Part shown: positions 6,001-35,940 of the stretch, piece after piece
How the letters are laid out: each line of letters begins with the position of its first letter
How positions within the stretch are numbered: the first letter of the stretch is position 1
Source: a virus
Direction: 5' to 3' (one strand)
Length of the DNA stretch: 38,325 bases
Virus record (IMG/VR): IMGVR_UViG_3300040815_001832
Location: 1 to 38,325 of that record
The notes under the pieces: generated by a model
What the model was told of the DNA's origin: nothing
Database searches by the model: none
What the model saw: only the letters and a program-made list of their open reading frames with translations
Translations under genes and position numbers: made by a program

Positions 6001-7692
6001 TTGGCTTGTTTCTGTTGTAGAACCAATTGCTGTATAACCATATCTTACAGTATCTATAAAGTTTTCGTATTCTACTTCACTAGAACTTTTAAAAGGTTTA
6101 AAACTTATAGGAAATCCATACTCTGCATCATTAGTACCTGTGCCTAATTTGTGTGCAAAAATTTTGCTACCAGTAAAATTGTTTAAAGGATAAAGTGATT
6201 CATTACCTAAATATTTAAGATCATCGTTATACAGGTTAAATAGCGGAGCCTGATTTGCAGTAGATTTATTCTGTGCTTCTATAAGCCCAGTGGATGTAAG
6301 ATAAAAATCTTTACCTTTATGTGCTGTCCCTGAAATAACCGTTACTGTTTCATTGCTGGCTAGTGTAAAGTTTGCAGATGTAACAGGATCTGTTGCTACA
6401 CTTAAATTTATTACATTTGCTGAAATGCTTACATTATAAACATGTTTTGCAATATCTACATTATCTTTTGGAAAAATAATTGTTGTGCCGTTAGTAAGAT
6501 TTACACCATCTATAGATTGTTCTTCTGGTGAGCCGTTTACATTTTCAAATTTTAAGTTACCTGCATTAATATCTACATTGCCTCTAGATGTTGTACCGTG
6601 ATTAAACATCTCTAGATTCTTATCATATTCTAAAATAGGCCTTACTGCTCTAGCAGAACTTACAGGTGTATTAGTTATATACAAACTTTCATGATACCAA
6701 AAGTTTACTCTACTCCAAATGTTCTCGTTTCCTGCACCTCTACCAATTGTATAATAATTTTTTGTAGTAAGATTGGGGTTAAATAAATTACCAAAGTTTA
6801 AGTTTTTCTTTACTAATTGAATACTGTCGCCTACGCCTTCAACTATATATTCTATATCTGCTTTATTTTGAGGTATAACATAGTCGCCGCTAAATTTAAT
6901 TACTTGACCATTTACAAATTTTGTGCTACTATTAGGCTCAGTATAAGATGCTTTACCTAAGATATCATTATCAATATCTATTGGATTACTAGCCGAGCCA
7001 GTAATGGTAATAATATCTGGCCCACCTTTATGTTCTATACTACCGCCACTTGTAAATGCACTATATCCTTGTGAATTTGCAGTAAGTCTTAAATCATTAT
7101 CAGTATATAATTCAATTGAGGTATCTGTAAGTACTCTAACAAAAAATGAACTGTTATTTATTTCAGTCATTCCACTTACATCGGATATGCTTACTTTAGT
7201 TCCTGTTACAAAACCGTGACTAGTGCTAGTTGTAACTATACAAGGATTTGCCTGTGATATGCTACTAATATTTGCTTGTACAGTAGGGTCCCAAAAATAT
7301 TCTTGATAGTTTACAAATTTGTCTATATCGATAGGTGGTAAAAATGTTTGGAAATTGCTATTAAAAAATTTATTATGATTTTTAGTATCAATGCCAAATG
7401 TATTAAAAATACTAATTAGTTCATCGTAGAACAAGAAGTTTTCGCTTTCACCTGTTGTTAAGTTTACAGTATTAACTGTAGGTGCTAAACTGTAGTAGGA
7501 TCTTTCTATTGTTGGTTCAGATATAAATGCACCATTTACATTATGATCTTCAGAAGATTTAGAACCCACAAAGCCTGATATATTTACAACGTTTGCTTTT
7601 GAATATAATTGCTCTACTGTACTTTCAAAGAAGTTTTTTATTGCACTTGTTTGATGTACATTAGGTAATTGTGTATAAATCTTATCTGCCAC
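1..7692 (-). CDS. Giant baseplate-wedge/virion structural protein (gp7 position), 3' end outside window
   Basis: This frame is open without a stop from a GTG at 7692 to the left edge: 2,564 codons are visible and the C-terminus is missing. The GTG overlaps the TAG stop of gp6 (TAGTG), and an AAGGG lies about 11 nt upstream, so translation is probably coupled to gp6. No ATG competes near the N-terminus, which reads MADKIYTQLPNVHQ. Its position directly after gp6 matches T4 gene 7 (wedge initiator, 1032 aa), but the protein is at least 2.5 times longer. Visible landmarks are an aromatic segment with RPHTHPWEMLGF (about residues 1070-1081), a type of motif I associate with marine phage structural proteins; an Asp/Gly-rich stretch followed by EHVFHTIHMHG (about 1316-1340); and a YHYH-like domain (about 1590-1750) with GWAFDGLPIYGPYGY and FPYAVGG. 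It is probably a structural component of the outer baseplate. The gene call is firm; the gp7 equivalence rests on position and size class only. Confidence 0.85.
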   Translation of the reverse strand, partial: MADKIYTQLPNVHQTSAIKNFFESTVEQLYSKANVVNISGFVGSKSSEDHNVNGAFISEPTIERSYYSLAPTVNTVNLTTGESENFLFYDELISIFNTFGIDTKNHNKFFNSNFQTFLPPIDIDKFVNYQEYFWDPTVQANISSISQANPCIVTTSTSHGFVTGTKVSISDVSGMTEINNSSFFVRVLTDTSIELYTDNDLRLTANSQGYSAFTSGGSIEHKGGPDIITITGSASNPIDIDNDILGKASYTEPNSSTKFVNGQVIKFSGDYVIPQNKADIEYIVEGVGDSIQLVKKNLNFGNLFNPNLTTKNYYTIGRGAGNENIWSRVNFWYHESLYITNTPVSSARAVRPILEYDKNLEMFNHGTTSRGNVDINAGNLKFENVNGSPEEQSIDGVNLTNGTTIIFPKDNVDIAKHVYNVSISANVINLSVATDPVTSANFTLASNETVTVISGTAHKGKDFYLTSTGLIEAQNKSTANQAPLFNLYNDDLKYLGNESLYPLNNFTGSKIFAHKLGTGTNDAEYGFPISFKPFKSSSEVEYENFIDTVRYGYTAIGSTTETSQNGYYYYKLLKSTPEYHTYLKNASNKNKQRIITKFELSIFDIDESKTKFYIGCIPNVDTDNSSGYDIEVLVNGKKREDFTYSDTGYITFTSFNFAVNDLIDISVLSDSGLLSNDSISKYELPLSWRGNPFNNDVTTIAEPEYLPHFKSYIQDQKNFTGNVLSSNNFANLEKEPSKADQIIQATQDTILGAFLLDDQEHNLVDALRFNNREYTRYKRRFKKELTNYFNVTDVTDLSNEFILEKVLRSLISYSVGKKVFNQTYILPFGDNYTEEKFSISSLDQVSYTLTNYADLDKIENSLLVYLVDSNNNRTLLEVDTDYTITSFNPITVTLSATSGYAIGNTIISKLYNQDRDSAQCPPTPSTMGLYPLYTPTIEVDSSFQTEQSLLVGHDGSKTSLYNDRRDDILLEFEKRIYNSAKAEFRENNSLADLNVAVVKPGAFRNTFYSQNDWNDLLNLNYANWVSSNNLDAVTNEFYDADDSWTWNYRGDSDLPGHWRGWYEYYYDTVRPHTHPWEMLGFTEIPSWWINQYGADYSLSNTSLWHDLEHGIIRRGTRENFTNSLYLESNFNPFIRKGLKNYYPIDDNGALRSPYDITSTQTTTRTVSYTNASANTSTDPEYNNGAIIDVTGDGSNFFKREVTVNGVRVMAAGSVGGQTAVPDAWVEKVARMFELFTDPDGAGINSTLQRNLIKTLSGDTGTYHAGVPTIQRVARGAGSDYSTNFLTDSGITFWNLTNLFDNTVQNDMVWYLNSTGDGYGDGDADAQEVIEHVFHTIHMHGLPADDIKLYNYLAADWQSGDLYAAMEEAYDAGKWDPSGYQSPSNAWKTDADAFEVAAKEYLFLLNFAMFEYTQLWDGGSLAPEWSDDMRTQAGIQANNPLGYAFHNTYIAPVISKPSLATIRSIFQDGNTPAQDNPALAGLSGYVVDVSSAGYVTTSFLETDGSNVNFDAYNVYITSNNISNYATNKIDTSSDLYPIAEKELTYNVVRADLTTGIAANSTVLPSNAIGVLTNGLPLYNPKSSTSYNNENVWHYDIGYQNKSNRAAGIISSTNADGIIVSHVITEDMSNATAWGNSTTHSGIVGWAFDGLPIYGPYGYTDPSNTSSEITNIKSAFVLKSTNRASGPGGKHTGVFVEDYELGSGNVSNGYADKWNHRTGLTPESPNVQIDYYVVTIDDDGEPMFPYAVGGGTEVFESSNLSFASTYFKIAYDVSNNSNNQGYTVPTSEVAISSTKVITKTFTPARNYTWRIGDGASVENAWKYSEEYPFAVTEGLLLARPGLFATLFSDPIKLYNPTANKKQYLSTVTRRKWDFRDANDFAIHGDINANGEMITNIGYTQFINSWLKFQGLDVNNFADKLRTINLKLGHRLAGYVDKDTMILSLDQYSTTGSSTNLIIPEENITVNVHKSPFKTRNAYSGVIIEKSANGYKIRGYDKTTGYFEYLPGDTRYEKQNVSAGGTPVDYISYTDNTSYEEQVYVEYNDTYYVSKSSVPSSENFNPIYWTSLSALPLENAATGVYYQRDTGVITRAYYETEYTDIQDIFDILAGIGRYQTSLGFDFGQYDADIGDVRNWVYSAKQFLFWTTGSWQIGNTIELSPLASKVMFEAPLGFVAQINKIDRNQFSIMDRQGVAIDPKACDIIRENNVLTVSPPDDNEIYSITLYTAEIEHAMVLDNTTVFADTIYDPFVNQKQNRIKIKATKTANWNGRFLSEGFIIDGDELKPNLDNLAETMGKYHEVGFVPVEKQVYETARSLYGYKERDFLNELDITDDQQFEFYRGMIQNKGTNTSLSRIGRSSSIVQGEMQVYDEWAIKVGDFGDLNNDQTVELKLEKKDVVQDPQLITLSFPEDTTGIIDRIDVLSNTTVYYETPNINIGAPSSGTQALGTVTLNSENKLSSISLTNQGTGYSTAPSVKLEASNTSIILKGNTATSSSAITTINEYGIVDGNITYDYIWPAGVYVDTTTATPSNANSSAQVVSISANSSLRLANVQFTSDNSAIDSIYYN

Positions 7693-11939: not shown

Positions 11940-12308
11940 CTAAACTCCACTCTGAGATATGTACTCTACAAAAAGTGTTTCACTGCTACTTAACATAACA
12001 TAACTAATTGTAACTTCTGCTCTTATTGAATGGTCACCTATTAATATATCAATATTATCAAGTGTTGCTCTAGGTTCACCATCTATTATTCTTTCAATAT
12101 CTTCTTTTACTATTTCTTCTAATTCTGGAATATTAGGATCCATTAATAAATCATAAATTATTGTACCATACTCAGGACGCATAACTCTTTCGCCTTTTTT
12201 TGTATACAATTGATTTAAGATATCTCTCTTTATTAATTCAGAATCTACTAGAGTATAAGGTGCTCTAATTTTATCTGCTGTACTGAATCCTTTAAACAAA
12301 ATTGCCAT
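11940..12308 (-). CDS. 25: Baseplate wedge protein gp25 (GPW/gp25 family)
   Basis: A 122-aa protein with the GPW/gp25 fold signature: FKGFSTADKIR at the N-terminus, a motif around GERVMRPEYGTIIYDLLMDPN in the middle, and a C-terminal beta segment. In T4, gp25 sits at the sheath-nucleating end of the wedge, where it helps start sheath polymerisation. I chose the ATG at 12308 (MAILFKG) rather than the in-frame TTG five codons upstream. That TTG falls inside the late-promoter box and has no ribosome-binding site. There is no Shine-Dalgarno before the ATG either: GATAAATA lies exactly 5 nt upstream, so the mRNA should begin at or next to the A of the start codon. Three nt separate its stop from gp6. 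Confidence 0.93.
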   Translation of the reverse strand: MAILFKGFSTADKIRAPYTLVDSELIKRDILNQLYTKKGERVMRPEYGTIIYDLLMDPNIPELEEIVKEDIERIIDGEPRATLDNIDILIGDHSIRAEVTISYVMLSSSETLFVEYISQSGV

Positions 12309-12313
12309 ACTTG

Positions 12314-12321
12314 TATTTATC
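12314..12321 (-). promoter_or_regulatory. Late promoter box GATAAATA (gp25-gp6-giant gene)
   Basis: Minus-strand GATAAATA, one base off the T4 late consensus TATAAATA recognised by gp55. Only 5 nt (CAAGT) separate it from the gp25 ATG. In T4 the box spans about -13 to -6, so the predicted transcription start is the ATG itself. Confidence 0.75.
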
Positions 12322-12350
12322 AAAAGTATTAAAAGATGTTTTAATAAGAC

Positions 12351-12379
12351 TTGACTTAATCAAAAATGTGCTGTATAAT
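12351..12379 (+). promoter_or_regulatory. Sigma70-type promoter for the small coiled-coil gene
   Basis: TTGACT at 12351-12356 and a perfect TATAAT at 12374-12379 with a 17-nt spacer, about 50 nt upstream of the plus-strand ATG at 12431. It points away from, and lies back to back with, the gp25 late promoter. The fit to host sigma70 suggests early transcription. Confidence 0.8.
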
Positions 12380-12430: not shown

Positions 12431-12634
12431 ATGCAAAATTTAACTACAAAAGACCTTAATAACACACTAGAAGAAGAACTAAGAATTATGCTCGTTGAGA
12501 AAAACAATGAGAATAATAGTCTTAGAGGTACAATTGAATTACTAGAACAAGCCGTTGCAGAAGAACAAGAACAAAAATACAGATTACTTGTTGAGAATGC
12601 TGATTTAAAAAAAGAAATTAAGAGTCTTAGTTAA
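12431..12634 (+). CDS. Small acidic coiled-coil protein of unknown function
   Basis: A 67-aa protein, highly charged and rich in Glu, Leu and Asn. Most of its length (about residues 8-66) has heptad-like hydrophobic spacing, predicting one long helix that probably forms a coiled coil. No family is recognised. The start ATG has GGGGA 4-5 nt upstream, and a near-consensus sigma70 promoter lies about 50 nt before it, so this is a real and probably early gene. It lies on the opposite strand inside the late baseplate operon, back to back with gp25, and its last 8 nt overlap the 3' end of the convergent lysozyme-fold gene. A small host-interaction or anti-sigma type protein would fit, but that is a guess. 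Confidence 0.75.
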   Translation: MQNLTTKDLNNTLEEELRIMLVEKNNENNSLRGTIELLEQAVAEEQEQKYRLLVENADLKKEIKSLS

Positions 12635-13259
12635 TAGAATCTTTTTGATCTGGTAGCACTGGTGGAGTTCCAGTTCTAAATATACCTGCTTTTCTATATG
12701 CTCTATCTTTAATTCCTATTAGAATTTCACGTTGTTGTTTGAATGACAACGTCGTTCCTTGATGCATGTTTATATATTGGTTCAACTCTGCTTGTATGTC
12801 TAACCAACCAGGTGTAGAAAATAACTCTGCTTCAAACTGACGTCTTTGTACATAATCCTCTCTGACTGTAGGTCTAGTGTTTGGTCCTTTAGTACCAGTT
12901 CTCCATCTTTGCATTTTGCTAACAACATCTTCGTACCTGCCGTTATTAAGAGATTCTAGAACACCGCTATTTGAAAAATTCTCTATTCCTATGTGATGTG
13001 CAAAACTTGTAAGTGCAGTAAATTGATATTCGTTTAATGGTACTTTTACAAGATTCTTTACTTGCTCACTTATGAATGTTAAATCTGCATTAAAAATTAG
13101 TTCTTCTGCTTTAGGTCCTACTCCGTTATTTACATCGACATACGTCATTCCTGTTTTCTTGTTTCTGAAAATAATACTTCCACCATCAACGTCCATGGTA
13201 TACCCTGCTTTATCTAGATCCATCAATACTTGTAAATATGTATCTGTAACGTCTGCCAT
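12627..13259 (-). CDS. Lysozyme-fold (GH24-like) protein, separate from gp5
   Basis: A 210-aa protein. Residues about 65-150 match the C-terminal half of the T4/lambdoid GH24 lysozyme fold: KNLVKVPLNEYQFTALTSF, then HIGIENF, LNNGRYEDVVSKMQRW and an RRQFEAELF stretch. In T4 this domain is built into gp5 and locally digests peptidoglycan during tail penetration. Here the gp5-like spike is the upstream gene and this is a free-standing protein. The N-terminal about 60 residues lack the expected catalytic pattern (Glu followed about 8-9 residues later by Asp, and a Thr/GxGH strand), so it may be structural rather than enzymatic. The ATG overlaps the gp5 stop (TAATG), with AAAGGA just upstream. Overlap, size and context suggest a baseplate hub component. 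Confidence 0.8.
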   Translation of the reverse strand: MADVTDTYLQVLMDLDKAGYTMDVDGGSIIFRNKKTGMTYVDVNNGVGPKAEELIFNADLTFISEQVKNLVKVPLNEYQFTALTSFAHHIGIENFSNSGVLESLNNGRYEDVVSKMQRWRTGTKGPNTRPTVREDYVQRRQFEAELFSTPGWLDIQAELNQYINMHQGTTLSFKQQREILIGIKDRAYRKAGIFRTGTPPVLPDQKDSIN

Positions 13260-18499: not shown

Positions 18500-18802
18500 T
18501 TATAAACCTGCTATTCTTTTAACAGTATCGCCTGACGGTAATTGTATAACTGTTCCTTCTACAAAATCATTAATAGGGTCTACTAATACATCTGGATTTC
18601 TTAGTGCAAACACCCACCACAGTCTTGTATTATTGTAAATTTTATATGCTAAAAGATCAGGTCTTTTGTGATCAGCACTACTTAATGTGTACTCTTCGTC
18701 ATATAAAGATTTTGGCATTTTTGGTAATGCATTTAAATCTAAAAAGTTTTCGAATGTGCCAGCATTTTTTAAAAAACTATCTCTTCTATGAAAGTTAGCC
18801 AT
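18500..18802 (-). CDS. 53: Baseplate wedge protein gp53
   Basis: A 100-aa protein with the short LysM-like core of marine gp53: DHKRPDLLAYKIYNNTRLWW, then VFALRNPDVLVDPINDFVEG and TVIQLPSGDTV. T4 gp53 (196 aa) locks adjacent wedges around the hub; here only the core domain is present. Its ATG shares a base with the gp48 stop (TAATG), and its stop is followed at once by the hub gene, so translation of the three is probably coupled. Confidence 0.9.
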   Translation of the reverse strand: MANFHRRDSFLKNAGTFENFLDLNALPKMPKSLYDEEYTLSSADHKRPDLLAYKIYNNTRLWWVFALRNPDVLVDPINDFVEGTVIQLPSGDTVKRIAGL

Positions 18803-19725
18803 TATACAAACCCATCCTTATAACTTTCACCAGTAGTAATACCTTTGAGATCAAATCTTTTGCGTTGTTTTTGAGGTGTGTAAGTTGGCTGTAAATCAAT
18901 CATCACTGATGTTGACGTAGGCACATATGTGGTTGTAGGTTTTCCCTTTATATTTGTGACTACTGGTACATAGTCTACTGTATCGGAATATTCAACAGTA
19001 TAACTTCTTAATACAACTGGTACTTTATTAAAACCATGGTCTCCAAGATATTCAAATAATAGAACCGGTGGCGGAGTACCTGCTACACCTCTACCTACTG
19101 CTGTATCACCGTATTCAGATTTTGTCATAACTTTTAAAAATGTTAATACTGCTAAAACATATCTTGCTTCATCTATATTGTTTGCAGTAAAATCTGATGA
19201 TACAGGAAAATTAGGCGGTGTCGAATTTATATACGACATGATAGGATAATTCATTCCTTGGCCTTCATGCTGATGATAGTTTGCAGTACCACTAATAAAA
19301 AACCTAGGAGTATATTGAAAAACTAAGCCACCTGATTCGATAATAGGCGCCAATAATGCTGATTCTTCAGCATTGGAGGCAGTTGCTCTGTAAGTAAGTA
19401 ATTCTCCTGCAGATTTAGGTCGCAACCTAGCACGCCAGTCTTTATTTTCTGCTAAACTGCCTTCATTTGAAACATCTAACGCCGCGGCTTGATTACTTTG
19501 TTGTGCTAATCTATTTCTTAATTGTAATTCGCTTAAATTTCTTGCACCAAATAACAGGTTTGAATCTGCGTTTCTAGGAGGACTTGCTAAACCTCCAAAG
19601 ATATCGCCACCTAGATTTCCTAAAAGGCCACCTACTGCTCGCCTTATTACTGGATTATCTATTGAGCCAAGTTTTTGTTTAGCCTTGTTTCCAAGATATC
19701 CTGATATTAAATTTCCAAATGCCAT
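18802..19725 (-). CDS. 48: Tail tube cap/initiator gp48
   Basis: A 307-aa protein. An N-terminal Gly/Leu-rich segment (about 1-45) is followed by the gp48 core: RFFISGTANYHQHEG, PPNFPVSSDFTANNIDEARY, VLAVLTFLKVMTKSEYGD, GTPPPVLLFEYLGD, VPVVLRSYTVEYSDTVDYVP and SVMIDLQPTY. In T4, gp48 binds the hub top and, with gp54, provides the platform on which the gp19 tube polymerises. It is the first gene of the leftward baseplate operon. GATAAATA lies exactly 5 nt before the ATG and no Shine-Dalgarno is visible, so a leaderless late mRNA is predicted. No separate gp54 gene is visible in this window. Confidence 0.88.
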   Translation of the reverse strand: MAFGNLISGYLGNKAKQKLGSIDNPVIRRAVGGLLGNLGGDIFGGLASPPRNADSNLLFGARNLSELQLRNRLAQQSNQAAALDVSNEGSLAENKDWRARLRPKSAGELLTYRATASNAEESALLAPIIESGGLVFQYTPRFFISGTANYHQHEGQGMNYPIMSYINSTPPNFPVSSDFTANNIDEARYVLAVLTFLKVMTKSEYGDTAVGRGVAGTPPPVLLFEYLGDHGFNKVPVVLRSYTVEYSDTVDYVPVVTNIKGKPTTTYVPTSTSVMIDLQPTYTPQKQRKRFDLKGITTGESYKDGFV

Positions 19726-19730
19726 ACAAC

Positions 19731-19738
19731 TATTTATC
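19731..19738 (-). promoter_or_regulatory. Late promoter box GATAAATA (gp48 operon)
   Basis: Minus-strand GATAAATA with 5 nt (GTTGT) to the gp48 ATG at 19725, the same spacing as in front of gp25. By T4 geometry, transcription starts at the start codon. Confidence 0.78.
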
Positions 19739-19785
19739 TAATCCATTAACAGATGTTATTATTATCCAGTTTAACTAAATACTAC

Positions 19786-19852: not shown

Positions 19853-20725
19853 ATGGCACAGCCTAAAAAAGTTAATTATCTTAATAACAGAGATATATTA
19901 AAAGAAATACACAAAAGCAAAATGTCATACTGCTATCTAGCAGATGAAAAATACAGCATATTTGATATAATTCTAGAAGACGTTAAAAAGATCAATAGAA
20001 ATAGTCTTAAAACTGCTAGAGAAAATCATGTTGCTAGACTACAATATGACGCATATCAGGCCGCAATGGCCAAACATGATCCTAAGGATTATAAAAATAA
20101 ACCTAAACAAAAAGAGTTTGCTGTAGATCCTAAGAGCATTGATAAAGAAAAAATTGTTTTTAGAGTAATGACTATGGAACACATTCCAGATGAGCCAGGT
20201 AGAAAGAAAAATCCTAAAAATGAAGCAGAAACTAAAGCAAAAGTAAACTTTCCAGCATTTAAACATTATGCTTATCAAGGTGATGAAATAGTAGAAGTTG
20301 CTAGAAGTCATTGGGAAGGCAGTTTAAGTAACGGGCAGTTTAATCCTACTGTTGGTAGTATTACTAACAAATTAGGCACAATGTTTTTAAAACTAGTTGA
20401 AAGGTACAGTCACAGAGCAAACTGGAGAGGGTACACTTATGTAGACGAAATGCGTGGACAAGCATTAGTACAGTTATCTCAAATAGGATTGCAGTTTAAC
20501 GAAGCAAAATCAGATAATCCATTTGCATACTATACTGCCGCTGTAAACAATAGTTTTACTAGAGTATTAAATTTAGAAAAAAGAAATCAAACTATCAGAG
20601 ATGATATTTTAATCGACTCAGGCCACTTACCAAGTTATGGTAGACAGATTCAGCATGAAAATGAGATGAAGGCTTTGAGAGAGTCGGCAATAGAAAACGA
20701 AACTACAGACATAAACAACAATTAA
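19853..20725 (+). CDS. 55: Late-transcription sigma factor gp55
   Basis: A 290-aa protein. The C-terminal half carries the marine gp55 signature: RANWRGYTYVDEMRGQALVQ, then KSDNPFAYYTAAVNNSFTRV and LNLEKRNQTIRDD, which correspond to sigma region 2 (core binding and -10 recognition). The N-terminal about 130 residues are a Lys-rich extension, so the protein is longer than T4 gp55 (185 aa). In T4, gp55 replaces sigma70 on host RNA polymerase and recognises the 8-bp late box; with gp33 and the gp45 clamp it links late transcription to replication. Six close GATAAATA boxes in this window are its likely targets. ATG preceded by GAGGAG (7-nt spacing); first gene of the operon behind a strong sigma70 promoter; 1 nt before gp47. 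Confidence 0.9.
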   Translation: MAQPKKVNYLNNRDILKEIHKSKMSYCYLADEKYSIFDIILEDVKKINRNSLKTARENHVARLQYDAYQAAMAKHDPKDYKNKPKQKEFAVDPKSIDKEKIVFRVMTMEHIPDEPGRKKNPKNEAETKAKVNFPAFKHYAYQGDEIVEVARSHWEGSLSNGQFNPTVGSITNKLGTMFLKLVERYSHRANWRGYTYVDEMRGQALVQLSQIGLQFNEAKSDNPFAYYTAAVNNSFTRVLNLEKRNQTIRDDILIDSGHLPSYGRQIQHENEMKALRESAIENETTDINNN

Positions 20726-25359: not shown

Positions 25360-25593
25360 TTATAGATAATCATCTGTATCTTTACCTGCTTTCTTGTTAA
25401 TGAAGTCTGTTAGAGTTTTAGCAAATAATTCGCGTTCTAATCTAGATAATAGCATACAGTCAAAATAGGATATAGTACCGCTAGAATATACTACCAGTTC
25501 CATAATTTGTTTTTGTAGTTGGGTCGACTCGTCTTTAAGCCTCTTTAGGTACCCAACAATAGCGTCGGGCTCAGCCGAACCTAGGAAGCCATG
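25360..25593 (-). CDS. 51: gp51-like C-terminal extension, expressed by -1 frameshift from gp26
   Basis: A 77-codon open frame in the -1 register relative to gp26, from just after the slippery heptamer to a TAA at 25360. It has no ATG, GTG or TTG between the upstream in-frame stop and its conserved-looking body, and no ribosome-binding site, yet it reads like a real protein: EPDAIVGYLKRLKDESTQLQ, then KQIMELVVYSSGTISYFDCM and LERELFAKTLTDFINKK. The two-helix pattern with an ISYFD turn resembles the hub-assembly protein gp51, whose gene directly follows gene 26 in T4. The fusion product would be about 357 aa (280 from gp26 plus 77). By analogy to lambda gpG/gpGT it would be the minor tail-assembly chaperone. 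The only alternative starts are internal (ATG at about residue 31) and would cut off half of it. Confidence 0.7.
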   Translation of the reverse strand, partial: HGFLGSAEPDAIVGYLKRLKDESTQLQKQIMELVVYSSGTISYFDCMLLSRLERELFAKTLTDFINKKAGKDTDDYL

Positions 25594-25599
25594 AAAAAA
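25546..25599 (-). promoter_or_regulatory. Programmed -1 frameshift signal in gp26
   Basis: The heptamer T_TTT_TTC (25599 to 25593) is in the gp26 frame exactly as X_XXY_YYZ requires, three codons before the gp26 stop. Nine nt downstream a predicted stem begins: TAGGT (25583-25579) pairs with ACCTA (25550-25546), and inside it CCCGAC (25569-25564) pairs with GTTGGG (25557-25552) around a 6-nt loop. The outer stem includes the gp26 stop codon. Slippage by one base leads directly into the gp51-like frame. Confidence 0.7.
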
Positions 25600-26432
25600 T
25601 TTACAGGGTCAAACGATATAGTATTTTCAAATGTTTCTTCACATTTTTCACATTCAAAAGTAGCCTGATCCGCAATTCCTATATTATTAATAGTATTAGT
25701 TTCTTCGCTTATTGTTTTTCCAATATGCCCATCGCAATTTTCTAAAAATTCTAATATTTGCATACGATCAGTTACTACAATATCTTTATCTTTGTTTAGA
25801 ATAGTAATGCTTTGTACACTATCAACTAGTAATTCAAAATTAGATGAAGCAAGACGTACAAAGTTTTCATTAAATAATTTTAACCTATCTAAATCATCTG
25901 GTATATCACTGAGTGATTGTAGACTTCTAGTACTTTGAAAATTTGCTAAGCCGGCTTTTACTGTACTTCTGTAAGTGTAAGGCCTAAGTTCAATAACTAA
26001 TTCATCGCCAACATTAAGTTTATAACTTTCTTCTAATGTACCCATTAATTCTAATACATTTTCAGCACTTAAAGTAATTTCGCAAACTTCTTCGCATTTT
26101 GGACAAGGTGCATTAATTGGAATATCGTCATTGTTTGAAGCACCAGTAATTGCTACTAATAGTGCATCAACATCAGGTGCATATATGTCTAAAGGCTTTT
26201 TAATATTTGGACAACAACTCATTAATAGTTGTGTTGTTGCTTCTCCGTTTAATAATGCATCAGGATTTTTCATCATGATTTCATCTTTTGCAGTCATAGG
26301 AAAAATAGGAATCTCTCCTGACTCTGGTATTTCTATAACATCTTCTGAGTATAGACTTGTACCACTAGGTAACTTAACATATAATTTAGGAGACCTAAAG
26401 TGGTTTACTAATGGATTTGGTTGATTTGTCAT
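25581..26432 (-). CDS. 26: Baseplate hub assembly protein/tail chaperone gp26
   Basis: A 283-aa protein of the T4 gp26 family. N-terminal strands KLYVKLPSGTSLYSE are followed by FPMTAKDEIMMKNPDALLNG, LLMSCCPNIKKPLDIYAPDV and DALLVAITGAS, all typical of the family. Two CxxC pairs, CPKCEE (about residue 110) and CEKCEE (about 260), probably bind one zinc ion. T4 gp26 is required for hub assembly; its neighbour gp51 acts catalytically. In tailed phages generally, a chaperone with a frameshifted extension lies beside the tape measure gene, and here the likely tape measure is the divergent neighbour at 26525. ATG at 26432 with AGGAG 8 nt upstream, behind a late promoter with a leader of about 49 nt. 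Confidence 0.88.
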   Translation of the reverse strand: MTNQPNPLVNHFRSPKLYVKLPSGTSLYSEDVIEIPESGEIPIFPMTAKDEIMMKNPDALLNGEATTQLLMSCCPNIKKPLDIYAPDVDALLVAITGASNNDDIPINAPCPKCEEVCEITLSAENVLELMGTLEESYKLNVGDELVIELRPYTYRSTVKAGLANFQSTRSLQSLSDIPDDLDRLKLFNENFVRLASSNFELLVDSVQSITILNKDKDIVVTDRMQILEFLENCDGHIGKTISEETNTINNIGIADQATFECEKCEETFENTISFDPVNFFMAS

Positions 26433-26458
26433 GTATTAAAACTCCTGTTAATAAACTT

Positions 26459-26466
26459 GATAAATA
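26459..26466 (+). promoter_or_regulatory. Late promoter box GATAAATA (tape measure gene)
   Basis: Plus-strand GATAAATA; predicted start near 26472, leader about 53 nt to the ATG at 26525. It faces an identical minus-strand box 20 bp away. Confidence 0.7.
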
Positions 26467-26486
26467 TACATGTGATACTATCGTTA

Positions 26487-26494
26487 TATTTATC
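26487..26494 (-). promoter_or_regulatory. Late promoter box GATAAATA (gp26/gp51)
   Basis: Minus-strand GATAAATA; predicted start near 26481, leader about 49 nt to the gp26 ATG. Its predicted start lies beyond that of the facing plus-strand promoter, so the two 5' ends should overlap by about 10 nt. Confidence 0.7.
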
Positions 26495-26524: not shown

Positions 26525-28951
26525 ATGGCAGACTGGACAAAAATAACAATTGATATAGACGGCAATCCGCAGTCTGTTGAATTGCCTGCCTATGCAAAAC
26601 AAAGCACACAAGAAGAAATGCTTAAGGCTTTGGAAAAATTAGATGGAAGTTTTAATACAAAAACTCTGGAAAAATCAATCAATAACCTTTCTAACGAAAC
26701 ATCCAGCAATTCTAAAACATTTAAAAAGTCAATGGACGATTTCACTAAAGAGATGGATCGGTCAAATGAAAAAATAAGAAAAAGTTATGAAGTAGCAATT
26801 GGTGAATTTACTGGTAGTGTTTTTGATACTATTGGAAAAGTTGGTTTAACATTAGGTGGAATATTTTTAACAGGTTTAACTGTAACAGCCGGTAGGGCAA
26901 TAAATTTAGGAAATGTATTTAACGATCTAACAAAATCCGGTATTGCATTTAACGAAAGTCAAGGCCGAGCAGTAATGCAATCTCTGATTAATTTTAATAA
27001 CTTAGGTATTAGTACAGAAGATGCAACAGATATTATGATGGACAATTCTCAAGTTACGAGATTGTTGACTGGAGGCATTGCTAATGCAACAGCAGAATTT
27101 TTAAAATTAACAAGTTATGGTGTTAATTTAGGTTTAACATTAGATGATTCTGTTAATATGTATACTAAAGAATTAACTGCAAGAACAGAATATCTTAATT
27201 TAGGAACTGTAGATGCAAAACAGCGATCTCTACTTACTGCAAACATTGTAGACACCACAAGAAAACAAGTAATTTATGCCCAAGCATTAGGTACTAGTGT
27301 TGAAGCAATACAAAGTTTTGTAAGAAATGTATTAGACGACAACGGTGCATTTTCTTCAGCATTGTTAAGAGTGCCTACTATGGCAAGAGAAAATTTATTA
27401 AAAGGCGCAACAGACTTTTTAGGTACCATGAGAGCATTAGGTGGCGAAGTAGGTGGCGAACTTGGGGCGGCTACTTTAGAAGCCGCAACATTTGGCGCAT
27501 TAGGATTCTCTGATGCGGCAATGAATTTTGTCACAGTATTACCATCGTTAGCATCAACAATGAACGGTGCAATCAGAGATTTTGAGAGCGGTGTATTAGA
27601 TGGTGCAGATGTATCTGAACAGTTTGCTCAACAATTAGGCAATCTTTCAAATGTTGAACGTGATAGAATATTTGCTTTTGCAAGGGCAGGCGATGAGACT
27701 GCTAAAGAATTAGCAAAAGCAGTTGTTCAATTTGAACAGTCTGCAAAAAGATTAGAAAAAATGGGGTTAGATCCTATACCTGTACAAAAAGGATTTAATG
27801 CTTTTAATGTAATTGTTAAAAGGTTTAGTACTATAATTGATCAAGTTCTTAACACATTTATGTCTGGATTTGGAGACGGGTTACTAGATGTTACTACCAG
27901 TATGGAAAACCTTACACATTCTTTCTTTAGATTTGTGAATACAGCATTAGGTGATGCTGAAACCGGCTTAATGGATTTTGGTAGAAGAGTAGGACAAAAA
28001 ACTGCTGAATTTATTGACTATCTAGATGGATTAATGACTGCGTTAACCGAGTCAGGTATGACATTTAAAGAACTTGGTGAGATGGTAAAGGTAGGTATAT
28101 CGACACTTTTAGAAAAATCAATGGAGGCTCTCGTAGAGGGTTTAGTATATGCAATGGAACTGCTATTTACCCACCCAAAAGTAATAGGTGCCATGGTAGC
28201 CTTAATTACAGCATTAGCATTAACCAGAGGAATACCATTAGTACCTACTAAAGGAAAGGTGCCGACTTCTACAAAAGTAGCCACCACAGTAGCCACCGGA
28301 GCCACTGTGAGTACTGCCGCAGGTTCAATTCTAGGAGCAGATGGTAATCCAATTAGTTCAGATGGCCCAGATAAACCCAAATCACCTAAAAAACCAGGCT
28401 TGGGTAAAGTAGTAGGCAAAGGCCTTTTTACCAAAATACTTGCACCTATAGGTGCATATATGGCTGTTTCTGAAGGTGTAGCAGGTGCCCAAACTGGAGA
28501 AGGTGGATTGCAAAAAACCGGCAGAGGAATTAGTTCTGCTGTAAATAACTTGTCTTTCGGTGTAATAGGCAAATCTTCAGATGAATACAGATATAAAGAC
28601 GAAGCATTTAAATTTGGAAATGAAACGTTAGCAATGGCTAACCAAACTGGCGGAATAGTTGACTTTACAGAAGAGACAATGATGTCAGCAGTAAAGACAG
28701 CATTCCAAAAAGACAAAGAAACACAGGAAAAATACAGACAAGCCTTAATACAATTCTTAGAAAATCAAGACACTATTAAGAGTAGGCATGTAGCAATGGA
28801 CAATCGTAACCCAAATTCAGAAGGTTATATCCAACCAGATGCAACATTTAGTGACGACAGCATGTCGTCGTTACTTATGAGTTTAAATAGATTAATTAAG
28901 ATTAATGAACAAACCAAAAAATCCACAAAAGCAATAGAACAAAATTCATAA
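26525..28951 (+). CDS. Probable tail tape measure protein (gp29 role)
   Basis: An 808-aa protein with tape-measure traits. A charged, helical N-terminus (about 27-95) resembles a coiled coil. Hydrophobic segments lie at about 104-122 (VGLTLGGIFLTGLTV) and about 554-573 (VIGAMVALITALALTRGIPL), with a weaker one at about 636-655. Long Ala/Gly/Leu-rich helical stretches are present, and a Pro/Lys-rich linker (about 610-630) precedes the C-terminal domain. T4 gp29 is 590 aa and sets tail length inside the tube. The location next to gp26/gp51, the chaperones expected to coat a tape measure, supports the call, although here the genes are divergent rather than consecutive. The ATG at 26525 has only a weak ribosome-binding site (GGAT, 6 nt upstream). 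A closely related alternative is a large hub or internal tail protein. Confidence 0.7.
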   Translation: MADWTKITIDIDGNPQSVELPAYAKQSTQEEMLKALEKLDGSFNTKTLEKSINNLSNETSSNSKTFKKSMDDFTKEMDRSNEKIRKSYEVAIGEFTGSVFDTIGKVGLTLGGIFLTGLTVTAGRAINLGNVFNDLTKSGIAFNESQGRAVMQSLINFNNLGISTEDATDIMMDNSQVTRLLTGGIANATAEFLKLTSYGVNLGLTLDDSVNMYTKELTARTEYLNLGTVDAKQRSLLTANIVDTTRKQVIYAQALGTSVEAIQSFVRNVLDDNGAFSSALLRVPTMARENLLKGATDFLGTMRALGGEVGGELGAATLEAATFGALGFSDAAMNFVTVLPSLASTMNGAIRDFESGVLDGADVSEQFAQQLGNLSNVERDRIFAFARAGDETAKELAKAVVQFEQSAKRLEKMGLDPIPVQKGFNAFNVIVKRFSTIIDQVLNTFMSGFGDGLLDVTTSMENLTHSFFRFVNTALGDAETGLMDFGRRVGQKTAEFIDYLDGLMTALTESGMTFKELGEMVKVGISTLLEKSMEALVEGLVYAMELLFTHPKVIGAMVALITALALTRGIPLVPTKGKVPTSTKVATTVATGATVSTAAGSILGADGNPISSDGPDKPKSPKKPGLGKVVGKGLFTKILAPIGAYMAVSEGVAGAQTGEGGLQKTGRGISSAVNNLSFGVIGKSSDEYRYKDEAFKFGNETLAMANQTGGIVDFTEETMMSAVKTAFQKDKETQEKYRQALIQFLENQDTIKSRHVAMDNRNPNSEGYIQPDATFSDDSMSSLLMSLNRLIKINEQTKKSTKAIEQNS

Positions 28952-28974: not shown

Positions 28975-29003
28975 TTGACAATATACGATAAATAGTGTAT
29001 TAT
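28975..29003 (+). promoter_or_regulatory. Sigma70-type promoter upstream of portal gp20
   Basis: Perfect TTGACA at 28975-28980 and TATTAT at 28998-29003 with a 17-nt spacer. The late box GATAAATA lies inside the spacer, so the two promoters overlap. Confidence 0.65.
28987..28994 (+). promoter_or_regulatory. Late promoter box GATAAATA (portal/head operon)
   Basis: Plus-strand GATAAATA with a predicted start near 29000 and about 20 nt of leader, which contains AAGGA 5 nt before the portal ATG. Confidence 0.78.
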
Positions 29004-29020
29004 ATACATAAAGGATTAAT

Positions 29021-30727
29021 ATGAGTTGGAGAAAATATTTTACATCAGTCGATAACAGCGGTTTACCGTTAAACGTAACTGGTAGTAAAGATACTTCAGG
29101 CCCAGGAGCCGCAACAAGTAGGTATGCTAGTTGGTTACCTGAAGTTTATGCTGGAAGTCCTAATAGGCTCATGAGATATATGCAGTATGATCAGATGGAT
29201 AATGATCTAGAAGTCAATGCCGCATTAGATACTATTGCAGAATTCGGCTCACAAGCAGAAGCAACTTCAAAATTTCCATTTGAATTAAGTTACAAAGGAA
29301 AACCAAGCGATACTGAAAATAAAATCCTTACAAAATCATTAGAACAATGGTGCAGACTTAATGAAATGCATAAAAGAGCATTTAGAATATTTCGTAGCAC
29401 AATAAAATATGGCGATCAATTCTTTATTAGAGATCCAGAAACATACAAACTTTACTGGGTCGATCCAGCAAACATAGAAAAAGTCATTGTAAACGAAAGT
29501 GAAGGTAAGAAAATTGAAACTTATTTTATAAAAAATTTACAAGCAAACTTTGAACAGTTAGTAGCAACTGATGTTGCACCTTTGCATTCGAGACCATATG
29601 GTGCAGGTGGCGGCATGATGGCTGGCGGTAATGTAGGAACATCAACTGGTAATTATTTGACAGGTGCTATGGACGGTGTAGACCAAGGATCACCTGTAGA
29701 TGCTAAACACATTGTACATGTTAGTTTAACAGAAGGTATGGATCATGCATGGCCATTTGGTGTTAGTATTCTTGAACCTATATTTAAAGTGTTCAAGCAA
29801 AAAGAACTATTAGAAGATTCTATTATTATATACAGAGTACATAGAGCACCTGAAAGACGTGTGTTCTTTATTGATGTTGGTAATATGCCACCTCACAAAG
29901 CAAGACAGTATTTAGAGCAAGTTAAATATGAAGTACAACAAAAACGTGTACCAAATAAAAACAAAGACGGCAACGGTGTAGCAGATGCGGCCTATAACCC
30001 AATGAGTATGTTAGAAGATTACTTCTTTGCTCAAACGGCAGATGGTAGAGGTAGTAAAGTTGATACTTTACCAGGCGGTGAAAACTTAGGACAAATAGAC
30101 GACCTTAGATATTTTAATAATAAACTACTTAGAGGTTTGCGTATACCTAGCAGTTATCTTCCTTCAGGACCAGAAGACGGGTCAGCAATGTATAATGACG
30201 GTAAAGTAGGTATTGCATATATACAAGAATATAGATTTGCTAGATACATAGAACGACTACAGAAACAAATACAGGAAGATCTAGACCACGAATTTAAAAT
30301 GTTTATAAAATACAGAGGTATTGATATAGACAGTAGTGGATTTGAAATAACATTTAATCCACCGATGAACTTTAGTTCTTACAGAGAGTTATCATTAGAT
30401 GCTGAACGTGCCACACTCTTTAACCAAGTTGCCGCAATACCATATTTAAGCAATCAGTTTAAATTACAAAAGTATCTAGGTCTAACAGAATTAGAAATGA
30501 AACAAAACGAAGAACTATGGCGTAAAGAAAACGATTATCAAAAATACACAGATGACAGCACAGACGCAGATTTAAGAAATATTGGTATAAGACCAGATCC
30601 TAATGCAATGGTAGATCCTGGAGCAAGTATTCCTTTCGATCAAGTACCTCCTAGTCCCGAAGGCGATTTAGGTATAAATACTACTGGAGAACCTGGATTA
30701 GGTGGTGACGTACCACCAGAGGTATAA
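29021..30727 (+). CDS. 20: Portal protein gp20
   Basis: A 568-aa portal protein of the T4 gp20 family (T4: 524 aa). Landmarks: RYASWLPEVYAGSPNRLMRY near the N-terminus, MDNDLEVNAALDTIAEF, FRIFRSTIKYGDQFFIRDPE (about 125-145), a Gly/Met-rich loop at about 196-220, MDHAWPFGVSILEPIFKVFK, IYRVHRAPERRVFFIDVGNM (about 275-295), KVDTLPGGENLGQIDDLRYF and LRGLRIPSSYLPSG. The C-terminus holds the FNPPMNFSSYRELSLDAERA segment and an acidic Pro/Gly tail. The dodecameric portal nucleates the prohead and is the DNA entry and exit gate. AAGGA 5 nt upstream of the ATG; preceded by overlapping sigma70-type and late promoters; first gene of the head operon. Confidence 0.96.
   Translation: MSWRKYFTSVDNSGLPLNVTGSKDTSGPGAATSRYASWLPEVYAGSPNRLMRYMQYDQMDNDLEVNAALDTIAEFGSQAEATSKFPFELSYKGKPSDTENKILTKSLEQWCRLNEMHKRAFRIFRSTIKYGDQFFIRDPETYKLYWVDPANIEKVIVNESEGKKIETYFIKNLQANFEQLVATDVAPLHSRPYGAGGGMMAGGNVGTSTGNYLTGAMDGVDQGSPVDAKHIVHVSLTEGMDHAWPFGVSILEPIFKVFKQKELLEDSIIIYRVHRAPERRVFFIDVGNMPPHKARQYLEQVKYEVQQKRVPNKNKDGNGVADAAYNPMSMLEDYFFAQTADGRGSKVDTLPGGENLGQIDDLRYFNNKLLRGLRIPSSYLPSGPEDGSAMYNDGKVGIAYIQEYRFARYIERLQKQIQEDLDHEFKMFIKYRGIDIDSSGFEITFNPPMNFSSYRELSLDAERATLFNQVAAIPYLSNQFKLQKYLGLTELEMKQNEELWRKENDYQKYTDDSTDADLRNIGIRPDPNAMVDPGASIPFDQVPPSPEGDLGINTTGEPGLGGDVPPEV
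30673..30680 (+). promoter_or_regulatory. TATAAATA late-promoter-like box inside the 3' end of gp20
   Basis: The only exact T4 consensus TATAAATA I found. It lies in coding sequence (Gly-Ile-Asn-Thr), 48 nt before the ATG of the following small gene, with about 43 nt of predicted leader. It may be a real internal late promoter or chance in AT-rich DNA. Confidence 0.35.
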
Positions 30728-30941: not shown

Positions 30942-31979
30942 GTGATCACACAGTTATTACATACAGAAAAAAGTACACACATAGAAATACTTTTACAATC
31001 GTCGAATGAACTTCCTACACGTTTAAAAAATACTTTATTAAATTTACATCATAGTACAAAAGATTTTGTATTAGACTATTCTACAGAACGTAATCATTAT
31101 TTAGATCGAGTTAATAGCACAAAAGATATTTTTACTGCTATATTAGATATTCTTGACTATTGCAATATAGACCCTAATAGAGTTACATTTTTATCAGGCA
31201 ATTATCTTATAAGCGAAAATTACGAAAGATATTGTGATTTATACGATAGACCTAAATTTAAGACAGTTGCAACTAAAGAGTTTTGGTTAAAACAAACCGT
31301 AGATACACATACAGATATATCTGATAATTATAGCGATAGCATCAGGCCTTATTATTTTAGTTGTCTAAATGGTGTTTCTAGACCTCAACGTATTCAAGCA
31401 TGTGAATTTTTATTTGAAAATAATCTTATAGATAAAAGTAAATGTACCTTTATGTTTGATAGAGATGCTATAAACTTGTTTTATGATAAATCACTGGGTT
31501 ATATAGCAGAACAGTTACCAATAGAGATTCAGCCAAAAAGAGATCAATCTGGGTATCATATGTGTCATGCACCTCAACATCAAGACTTTTATGATGTTTT
31601 TTATGGTTCTTATTTTGATGTTATAACAGAAACAAGTGCTGGCTTTTATGTGCCTTTTTCTTGGTGGAAAGACATATTTTATACTGAAAAACTGTGGAGA
31701 AGTATATTTTACAAACGTCCTTTTTTACTTATAGGCGATTATAAAGCATTAGACCAATTAAAGAAAATAGGATTTAAGACTTTTGAAAATATATTATTTG
31801 ATGAATCCTATGATAATATATTTGACCCTGAGCAACGTGTAGATGCTGTTTTAGAGCAAACAAAAAACATTTGTTCTAAGTATACAATACAAGAGTTACA
31901 TGATTTATTAAATTCTTCGCAAATAAATGAAGTTTTAGAATTTAACTATAATATGATAAATAAACTTGCACAATCATAA
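30942..31979 (+). CDS. Phage protein of unknown function inserted in the head operon
   Basis: A 345-aa soluble protein. It starts with GTG at 30942 (no ATG is available near the N-terminus; the ribosome-binding site is weak, GGGAT about 20 nt away), 9 nt after the preceding stop. Distinctive segments: PYYFSCLNGVSRPQRIQA (about 130-147), SWWKDIFYTEKLWRSIFYKR (about 240-260), PFLLIGDYKALDQLKKIGFK and TFENILFDESYDNI. The TEK.W..I...PF..G......GF.TF....DESYD series recurs, to my knowledge, in marine phage and bacterial surface-polysaccharide contexts and recalls the C-terminal part of some glycosyltransferase-like proteins; this is a loose resemblance, not an assignment. T4 has no such gene between 20 and 21, so it is probably an accessory insertion. 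Lower GC and fewer SD features than its neighbours support separate acquisition. Confidence 0.8.
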   Translation: MITQLLHTEKSTHIEILLQSSNELPTRLKNTLLNLHHSTKDFVLDYSTERNHYLDRVNSTKDIFTAILDILDYCNIDPNRVTFLSGNYLISENYERYCDLYDRPKFKTVATKEFWLKQTVDTHTDISDNYSDSIRPYYFSCLNGVSRPQRIQACEFLFENNLIDKSKCTFMFDRDAINLFYDKSLGYIAEQLPIEIQPKRDQSGYHMCHAPQHQDFYDVFYGSYFDVITETSAGFYVPFSWWKDIFYTEKLWRSIFYKRPFLLIGDYKALDQLKKIGFKTFENILFDESYDNIFDPEQRVDAVLEQTKNICSKYTIQELHDLLNSSQINEVLEFNYNMINKLAQS

Positions 31980-32116: not shown

Positions 32117-32935
32117 ATGTCAGAATCAAGAAGTAAATTAGAAGAAATTCTTGAACTTCTCCTTGCTGAAGAAAACGAAAAAGCGGAAGAAATGCTTCAT
32201 GAGTATGTTGTTGCAAAAGCAAGAGCAGAATATGAAAAAGTTTTAGACGAAGACGTTTCTGAAGAAGAAGAAATTGAAGAAGCAGAAGAGTCAGAAGACG
32301 AAGCAGTTGAAGAATCAGAGGAATCTGAAGAAGAGGCTGTTGAAGAAGCAGAAGAGTCAGAAGAAGAAGCAGTTGAAGAAGAGTTTGAAGTTGATGAAGT
32401 AATTGATCAAACAAACGATTTTGAAGACGATATCCTTGCTGATGAAGAAGAAATTGCTTCAGACACATTCGGCGAAGAAGATGATGAAGAAGCACCTGAA
32501 GGTGAAGAAGACTTAGAAGATAAAGTTGACAACATCGAAGATGAGTTGGAAGATCTTAAAGCAGAATTTGAAAAATTATTAGCAAACGACGACGAAGCAG
32601 ACATGGAAGACGGCGAAGAAGCAGAAATGGATGCAGACGACATGGAAGATGAACTTGATTTAGAATCAGTTGAATATGATCTAGATGAAGAAATTCGAGA
32701 TGAAGACGTTGTTGAAGAAGCAACCAAATTACAAGATAAAGTTGCAGATCCAAAAGGCGGCGCAGGTGAAGGCGAAGGCGAAAGTCCTTTAACAAAAGCA
32801 CCTAAGAAAACTACAGTTAGCGGAGCAGGTACACCTGTTAAAGCAAAAGATGGTAGCGACGGCAACATGGGTAACAACAAACCAGCAGATAACACACCTA
32901 CAGACAACATTAAGGTTGAACCTAAAAAGGCATAA
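32117..32935 (+). CDS. Acidic prohead core/scaffold protein (gp67/gp68-like)
   Basis: A 272-aa, extremely acidic protein. The N-terminus LEEILELLLAEENEKAEEML and HEYVVAKARAEYEKVLDED is the helical head region of marine prohead core proteins. Residues about 48-100 are imperfect Glu-rich repeats of the type EEAEESEEEAVEE. A second acidic helix follows (about 125-200), and the C-terminus is a Gly/Pro/Lys/Thr-rich tail containing KVADPKGGAGEGEGE and PLTKAPKKTTVSGAG. It sits directly before the protease gp21, like T4 gp67/gp68. In T4 such core proteins fill the prohead and are cut to peptides by gp21. It has the strongest Shine-Dalgarno in the window (AAAGGAGG, 5-6 nt before the ATG), consistent with high expression. 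Which T4 core gene it equals is uncertain. Confidence 0.82.
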   Translation: MSESRSKLEEILELLLAEENEKAEEMLHEYVVAKARAEYEKVLDEDVSEEEEIEEAEESEDEAVEESEESEEEAVEEAEESEEEAVEEEFEVDEVIDQTNDFEDDILADEEEIASDTFGEEDDEEAPEGEEDLEDKVDNIEDELEDLKAEFEKLLANDDEADMEDGEEAEMDADDMEDELDLESVEYDLDEEIRDEDVVEEATKLQDKVADPKGGAGEGEGESPLTKAPKKTTVSGAGTPVKAKDGSDGNMGNNKPADNTPTDNIKVEPKKA

Positions 32936-35932: not shown

Positions 35933-35940
35933 GATAAATA
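35933..35940 (+). promoter_or_regulatory. Late promoter box GATAAATA (tail fibre gene)
   Basis: Plus-strand GATAAATA directly after the gp23 terminator; predicted start near 35946 and about 25 nt of leader carrying AAAGGA before the ATG at 35971. Confidence 0.8.

Follow-up and report, generated by a model that had tools for sequence, protein, structure and literature searches.

A T4-type late promoter box five nucleotides from the gp25 start codon points to a conserved leaderless late mRNA in environmental T4-like phages

We analyze a T4-like phage fragment of 38 kb (a 38,325-base record, hereafter "the window") in which a late promoter box stands only five nucleotides in front of the start codon of gp25, a baseplate wedge gene. 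The sequence is best read as placing gp25 on a leaderless late mRNA that is conserved among relatives and whose synthesis probably depends on the gp55-type sigma of the phage, and we hold it very likely that the gene is expressed in this form from its own T4-type late promoter. T4-type late boxes and leaderless mRNAs are each already known; T4 itself lacks the arrangement at its late genes. Late transcription in T4 is a textbook case, its late genes lying behind leaders with Shine-Dalgarno sites. A search of the open-access literature turned up no earlier account of late genes without leaders in T4-like phages.

The window has genes for the portal, the head protease and the major head protein together with one for a gp55-type late sigma factor of 290 aa (19853..20725, plus strand; phrog_12791, E=3e-92; phrog_234, E=3e-22). 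Its closest isolated kin are PA5oct, RaK2-like and Atu_ph07-like jumbo phages, whose proteins are about 26-40% identical to gp25 and to the product of a second gene, starting at 19725; a megablast of the region against isolated phages gave no match, and scanning the window against Rfam and for tRNAs gave no hits. The gp25 gene (11940..12308, minus strand; 122 aa) carries the Pfam GPW_gp25 domain at 41.8 bits against a cut-off of 27.2. Upstream of it, positions 12321..12306 on the minus strand read GATAAATA-CAAGT-ATG, the arrangement that the initial annotation had described. Of 78 metagenomic relatives, 72 keep the T4-type box (12314..12321), predicted to span -13 to -6; the spacer CAAGT (12309..12313) is conserved in length and not in letters; and the A of the ATG (12306..12308) is the predicted transcription start. 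Five nucleotides of varied sequence are all the room between box and ATG, and they hold no Shine-Dalgarno site.

The position of the start is carried over from T4. There the late box covers positions -13 to -6 (PMC1524935), therefore +1 falls on the sixth base after the box, which with a 5-nt spacer is the A of the ATG. An independent sign for a start on this A comes from 70 leadered promoters of relatives, in which the sixth base is A in 73% of cases and has the highest information of the 12 downstream bases (0.80 bit, somewhat inflated by shared descent), while G is rare at the preceding base. The start codon itself fits a described preference of leaderless mRNAs for AUG (PMC9031893), with 45 ATG, one GTG and one TTG at spacing 5 in the clade scan. 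By sequence and by analogy with T4, the 5' end of the gp25 mRNA very probably lies at the ATG. Spacers of 6-9 nt in some relatives would also suit a very short leader of 1-4 nt, with a start not exactly at the sixth base and a message functionally near-leaderless; we think this improbable, since exactly 5 predominates in the window's clade and leadered promoters favor A at base 6.

Relatives of the window are mostly contig fragments, from which, with the isolates, 84 distinct gp25 upstream regions were assembled, 6 from isolated jumbo phages and 78 metagenomic; regions were collapsed to distinct upstream sequences, and the remaining relatedness is still in the count. Among the metagenomic regions the spacer is exactly 5 nt in 72 of 78, 6 nt in two, 7 nt in one and at least 19 nt in three. 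The 72 spacer-5 gp25 proteins share 37-100% pairwise identity (median 54%), and their spacers comprise 20 different pentamers, always with a pyrimidine at -1. Where the gp25 N-terminus differs by one codon (MAILFKGF versus MATFKGF), the ATG still stands at spacing 5. The late box of the virion gene at 19725 (vsp18802) serves as a natural control in the same phages: its distance floats between 16 and 28 nt, with a Shine-Dalgarno site. The initial annotation had argued that the 5-nt spacing is selected and not accidental, and the exact 5 in 72 of 78 regions, the 20 pentamers and the enrichment of spacing 5 described below uphold that view.

The same alignments speak to the possibility, which we regard as very remote, that the true gp25 start lies elsewhere and that misannotation created the 5-nt geometry. 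The window does have an in-frame TTG at 12323 and another at codon 4, but the former lies within the box, the latter is missing in many relatives, and N-terminal conservation starts from this ATG, with gp25 of PA5oct and RaK2 aligning from residue 1.

Against the leaderless reading stand the transfer of +1 from T4, the leadered gp25 of the closest isolated kin, the uneven genome weights and related sequences in the scan described below, and the 6 of 78 relatives that are off spacer 5, of which three have long spacers. PA5oct, RaK2, Phosso, Atu_ph07 and related jumbo phages are the nearest isolates by synteny, and in them the late sigma adjoins the same operon; unlike the window, each located gp25 upstream region is leadered (PA5oct, RaK2, Phosso, Vibrio 2.275, XaC1, SD-6_S16; 6 of 6). 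On a gp25 tree in which spacers of 5-7 were scored leaderless, leadered and leaderless states need only two changes, a count to be read with care given the few alignment columns; PA5oct and the relatives G004 and L226 fall, leadered, outside the leaderless clade. We read the two changes as one gain and one loss, the latter in G006.

A genome-wide scan of box-to-start spacing, which the initial annotation had proposed as a check, gave a clear excess at 5 nt. Seven large relatives (0.86 Mb) and the window, 0.9 Mb in all, were searched for [ACGT]ATAAATA followed by an ATG ORF of at least 50 aa; there were 2 such ORFs at spacings 0-4, 45 at 5, 9 at 6-8, 3 at 9-15 and 85 at 16-40. ORFs are about 100-fold commoner at spacing 5 than at the control spacings 0-4 and 9-15, where NATAAATA-box ATG ORFs number about 0.4 per position; one genome, G001, supplies 26 of the 45 cases, so that genome weights are uneven, and related sequences inflate the counts. 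In comparison phages, ATG ORFs at spacing 5 numbered none in T4, none in Syn9 and four in PA5oct. Within the window, GATAAATA-N5-ATG occurs exactly twice (12306-12321 and 19723-19738, both minus), and a reversed control pattern gave no occurrence in the same record. The one observation in favor of a chance placement is that GATAAATA is not over-represented there, with 7 copies versus a mean of 5.5 over its 168 letter permutations. Its placement is unusual, however, with 6 of the 7 copies just upstream of genes, and for gp25 the chance explanation is already refuted by conservation over many lineages and the roughly 100-fold enrichment of spacing 5, leaving it a practically negligible probability.

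The two modes of spacing, 45 ORFs at 5 nt versus 85 at 16-40 nt in relatives and window, agree with the earlier suggestion that the phage mixes two modes of initiation, and a near-empty gap between them is expected if every message either starts at its AUG or has a leader long enough to hold a Shine-Dalgarno site. Four other late boxes in the window keep leaders, as had been noted: before the ATG at 26432 (hub25581; box 26487..26494, minus; distance 54 nt, leader 49 nt), before that at 26525 (tmp26525; 26459..26466, plus; 58 and 53 nt), before the portal gene ATG at 29021 (28987..28994, plus; 26 and 21 nt) and before the ATG at 35971 (35933..35940, plus; 30 and 25 nt). AGGA or AGGAG is present before three of the four, the site at 26525 being weak, which bears out the remark that most have Shine-Dalgarno sites. 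A further copy of GATAAATA, at 31955-31962 (plus), lies inside the end of the gene at 30942-31979, 154 nt from the next listed start at 32117. We also observe facing late promoters at 26430-26494 for the divergent genes 25581-26432 (minus) and 26525-28951 (plus); T4 likewise has facing late boxes, at its gene 26/51 junction.

As in T4 late promoters (gp55/gp33/gp45; TATAAATA), the octamer NATAAATA directly precedes late structural genes, and the phage has its own gp55-type sigma. T4 differs in that, among its 31 boxes followed by an ATG ORF within 40 nt, none has that ORF at spacing 5 or anywhere closer than 12 nt, and, unlike T4, the window's group favors G as the first box base and has a palindrome in the -35 region of its tail and baseplate promoters. 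T4 late promoters are not known to have an element at this position. At gp25 the palindrome is ATTAAAACATCTTTTAAT (18 bp, 12328..12345, minus), 6 nt upstream of the box at about -37 to -20; a degenerate copy precedes vsp18802 (19745..19762, minus), and another lies before tmp26525 (26435-26452, plus). The consensus is ATTAAAAC-NN-GTTTTAAT, with a gap to the box of 6 nt at gp25, vsp18802 and tmp26525 and of 3 nt at hub25581; the portal promoter and most other late promoters lack it. It looks like a possible operator of a tail and baseplate regulon and, as an operator, may be separate from the promoter. We rejected it as a mark of leaderless units, as it is also found before leadered vsp18802 and tmp26525. 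At 26430-26494 the palindrome of the plus promoter contains, on the other strand, the AGGAG Shine-Dalgarno site of the minus gene, an arrangement conserved in about 20 relatives. Also upstream of gp25 lies a sigma70-like early promoter, TTGACT-N17-TATAAT (12351-12379, plus), directed away from gp25 toward an ORF at 12431-12634; TTGAC is found on the plus strand upstream of gp25 in most relatives.

The second spacing-5 site, 19738-19723 on the minus strand, reads GATAAATA-GTTGT-ATG (box 19731..19738, spacer 19726..19730) and precedes vsp18802, a virion structural protein of 307 aa (18802..19725, minus; phrog_12050). The initial annotation had noted identical geometry at the two units. Both do have N5 geometry, but they are not equivalent: gp25 is leaderless clade-wide and vsp18802 only in the window's lineage and in the relative L075. 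In homologues of vsp18802 among the relatives, the box, where found, is mostly 16-28 nt from the ATG with an AGGAGA-type Shine-Dalgarno site. The upstream region reads GATAAATAGTTGT-ATG in the window versus GATAAATAGTTGTAAGGAGATTGT-ATG in the relative L086, and the window gene looks as though its leader had been excised. The leaderless state of gp25 thus appears to be long-standing and that of vsp18802 more recent.

The same gp25 geometry occurs in a different lineage. HTVC008M (a Pelagibacter phage, Kyanoviridae) and the pelagimyophages resemble the window in having the gp25 box exactly 5 nt from the annotated ATG; they differ in lineage, in a box that is usually TATAAATA and in gp25 spacers that range over 5-9 nt. 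HTVC008M has nine spacing-5 ATGs, all GenBank-annotated CDS starts, and box-N5-ATG sites lie at 6280, 7562, 16007 (minus), 18916 (minus), 19456, 31132 and 49760. Its gp25 (I899_gp053; GPW_gp25, E=4e-13) has spacing 5, and the other eight units are those of a baseplate tail tube cap, tape measure, DNA end protector, baseplate wedge initiator, oxygenase, CsgF, a regulator and a hypothetical protein. Across IMG/VR, gp25 spacers of the HTVC008M type are 5-9 nt in 53 of 53 distinct upstream regions. Homology of the 19725 protein with the HTVC008M tail tube cap, also leaderless, found no support (BLASTP E=0.26). Late promoters of pelagimyophages were not satisfactorily detected by the method used for cyanophages (PMC7029224), and promoters abutting the start codon may explain why. 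In the open-access literature we found no description of pelagimyophage gp25 as leaderless.

Neither a functional class common to the leaderless units nor the earlier suggestion that the mix of modes may set protein ratios has found support so far. In G001 the leaderless genes include gp25, terminase, a head-tail adaptor and a PAAR-type protein, and also ferredoxin, glutaredoxin and a CHASE2 cyclase; a class of low-copy proteins only is likewise not clean, with metabolic genes among the leaderless ones. A tail-sheath-like gene of G001 (a sheath by its N-terminal sequence only) has a leader with a Shine-Dalgarno site, in anecdotal agreement with high-copy proteins remaining leadered. A second family, phrog_11259 (about 215 aa), has a leaderless or near-leaderless spacer of 5-6 nt at position 152372 of G001 (250 kb) and in homologues in G003, G005, G006 and G008. 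Two candidate causes were discarded: phage ribosomal protein S21, found in HTVC008M and PA5oct and in 0 of 23 records of the window's relatives (many of them fragments), and an N-terminal extension of the gp55-type sigma, as homologues aligning over it occur in leadered PA5oct.

Under the leaderless reading, the gp55-type sigma would bring host RNA polymerase to GATAAATA at -13 to -6, transcription would begin at the A of the gp25 ATG, and the 5'-terminal AUG would need no Shine-Dalgarno site, being bound directly by the 70S ribosome or by 30S with IF2. Upstream transcripts that run into the gene would carry no ribosome site for gp25, and therefore its product would come only from its own late promoter; the likely consequence is that gp25 synthesis would be tied to the firing of that promoter. 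We infer that timing is a simpler reading of leaderless gp25 than functional class. Alternatively, the box might fire while gp25 is mainly translated from longer upstream transcripts, the promoter being a supplement and the exact spacing without a translational role. The box does overlap the end of a same-strand upstream gene in HTVC008M-type phages, but in the window the same-strand upstream gene (12627-13259) is 318 nt distant, leaderless relatives have no Shine-Dalgarno site before the gp25 ATG, and a promoter lacking a translational role needs no spacing of exactly 5; we judge this the least improbable of the alternatives, and still unlikely.

Our preferred reading, a leaderless gp25 message, has parallels in known systems. 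Like leaderless mRNAs such as lambda cI (PMC9031893), gp25 has an AUG at the predicted 5' end, near-exclusive use of AUG and no Shine-Dalgarno site; unlike them, it belongs to a set of lytic-phage late genes with one promoter type, and is fixed in its clade. T4 gene 25 has a split ribosome site, in which a distant Shine-Dalgarno sequence is drawn close by a hairpin (PMC3014915), so that both genes have unusual translation start regions, the leader being predicted to be absent from the window's gp25. T4 gene e, whose ribosome site is hidden in early transcripts (PMC3014915), reaches by other means an end similar to the timing control proposed for gp25.

More tentatively, and with slightly more doubt than confidence, we suggest that the choice between leaderless and Shine-Dalgarno translation is made, in two environmental lineages of T4-like phages, by the position of the promoter alone (exactly 5 versus at least about 16 nt), and that gp25 became fixed as leaderless through strict coupling to its own late promoter, perhaps using changed late-infection ribosomes. 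Leaderless translation in lytic phages can be studied as a natural experiment in this large sister group, which sets the late promoter flush with the start codon and whose leadered homologues serve as built-in controls, and HTVC008M, being cultivated, offers a laboratory system ready for testing this late leaderless geometry.
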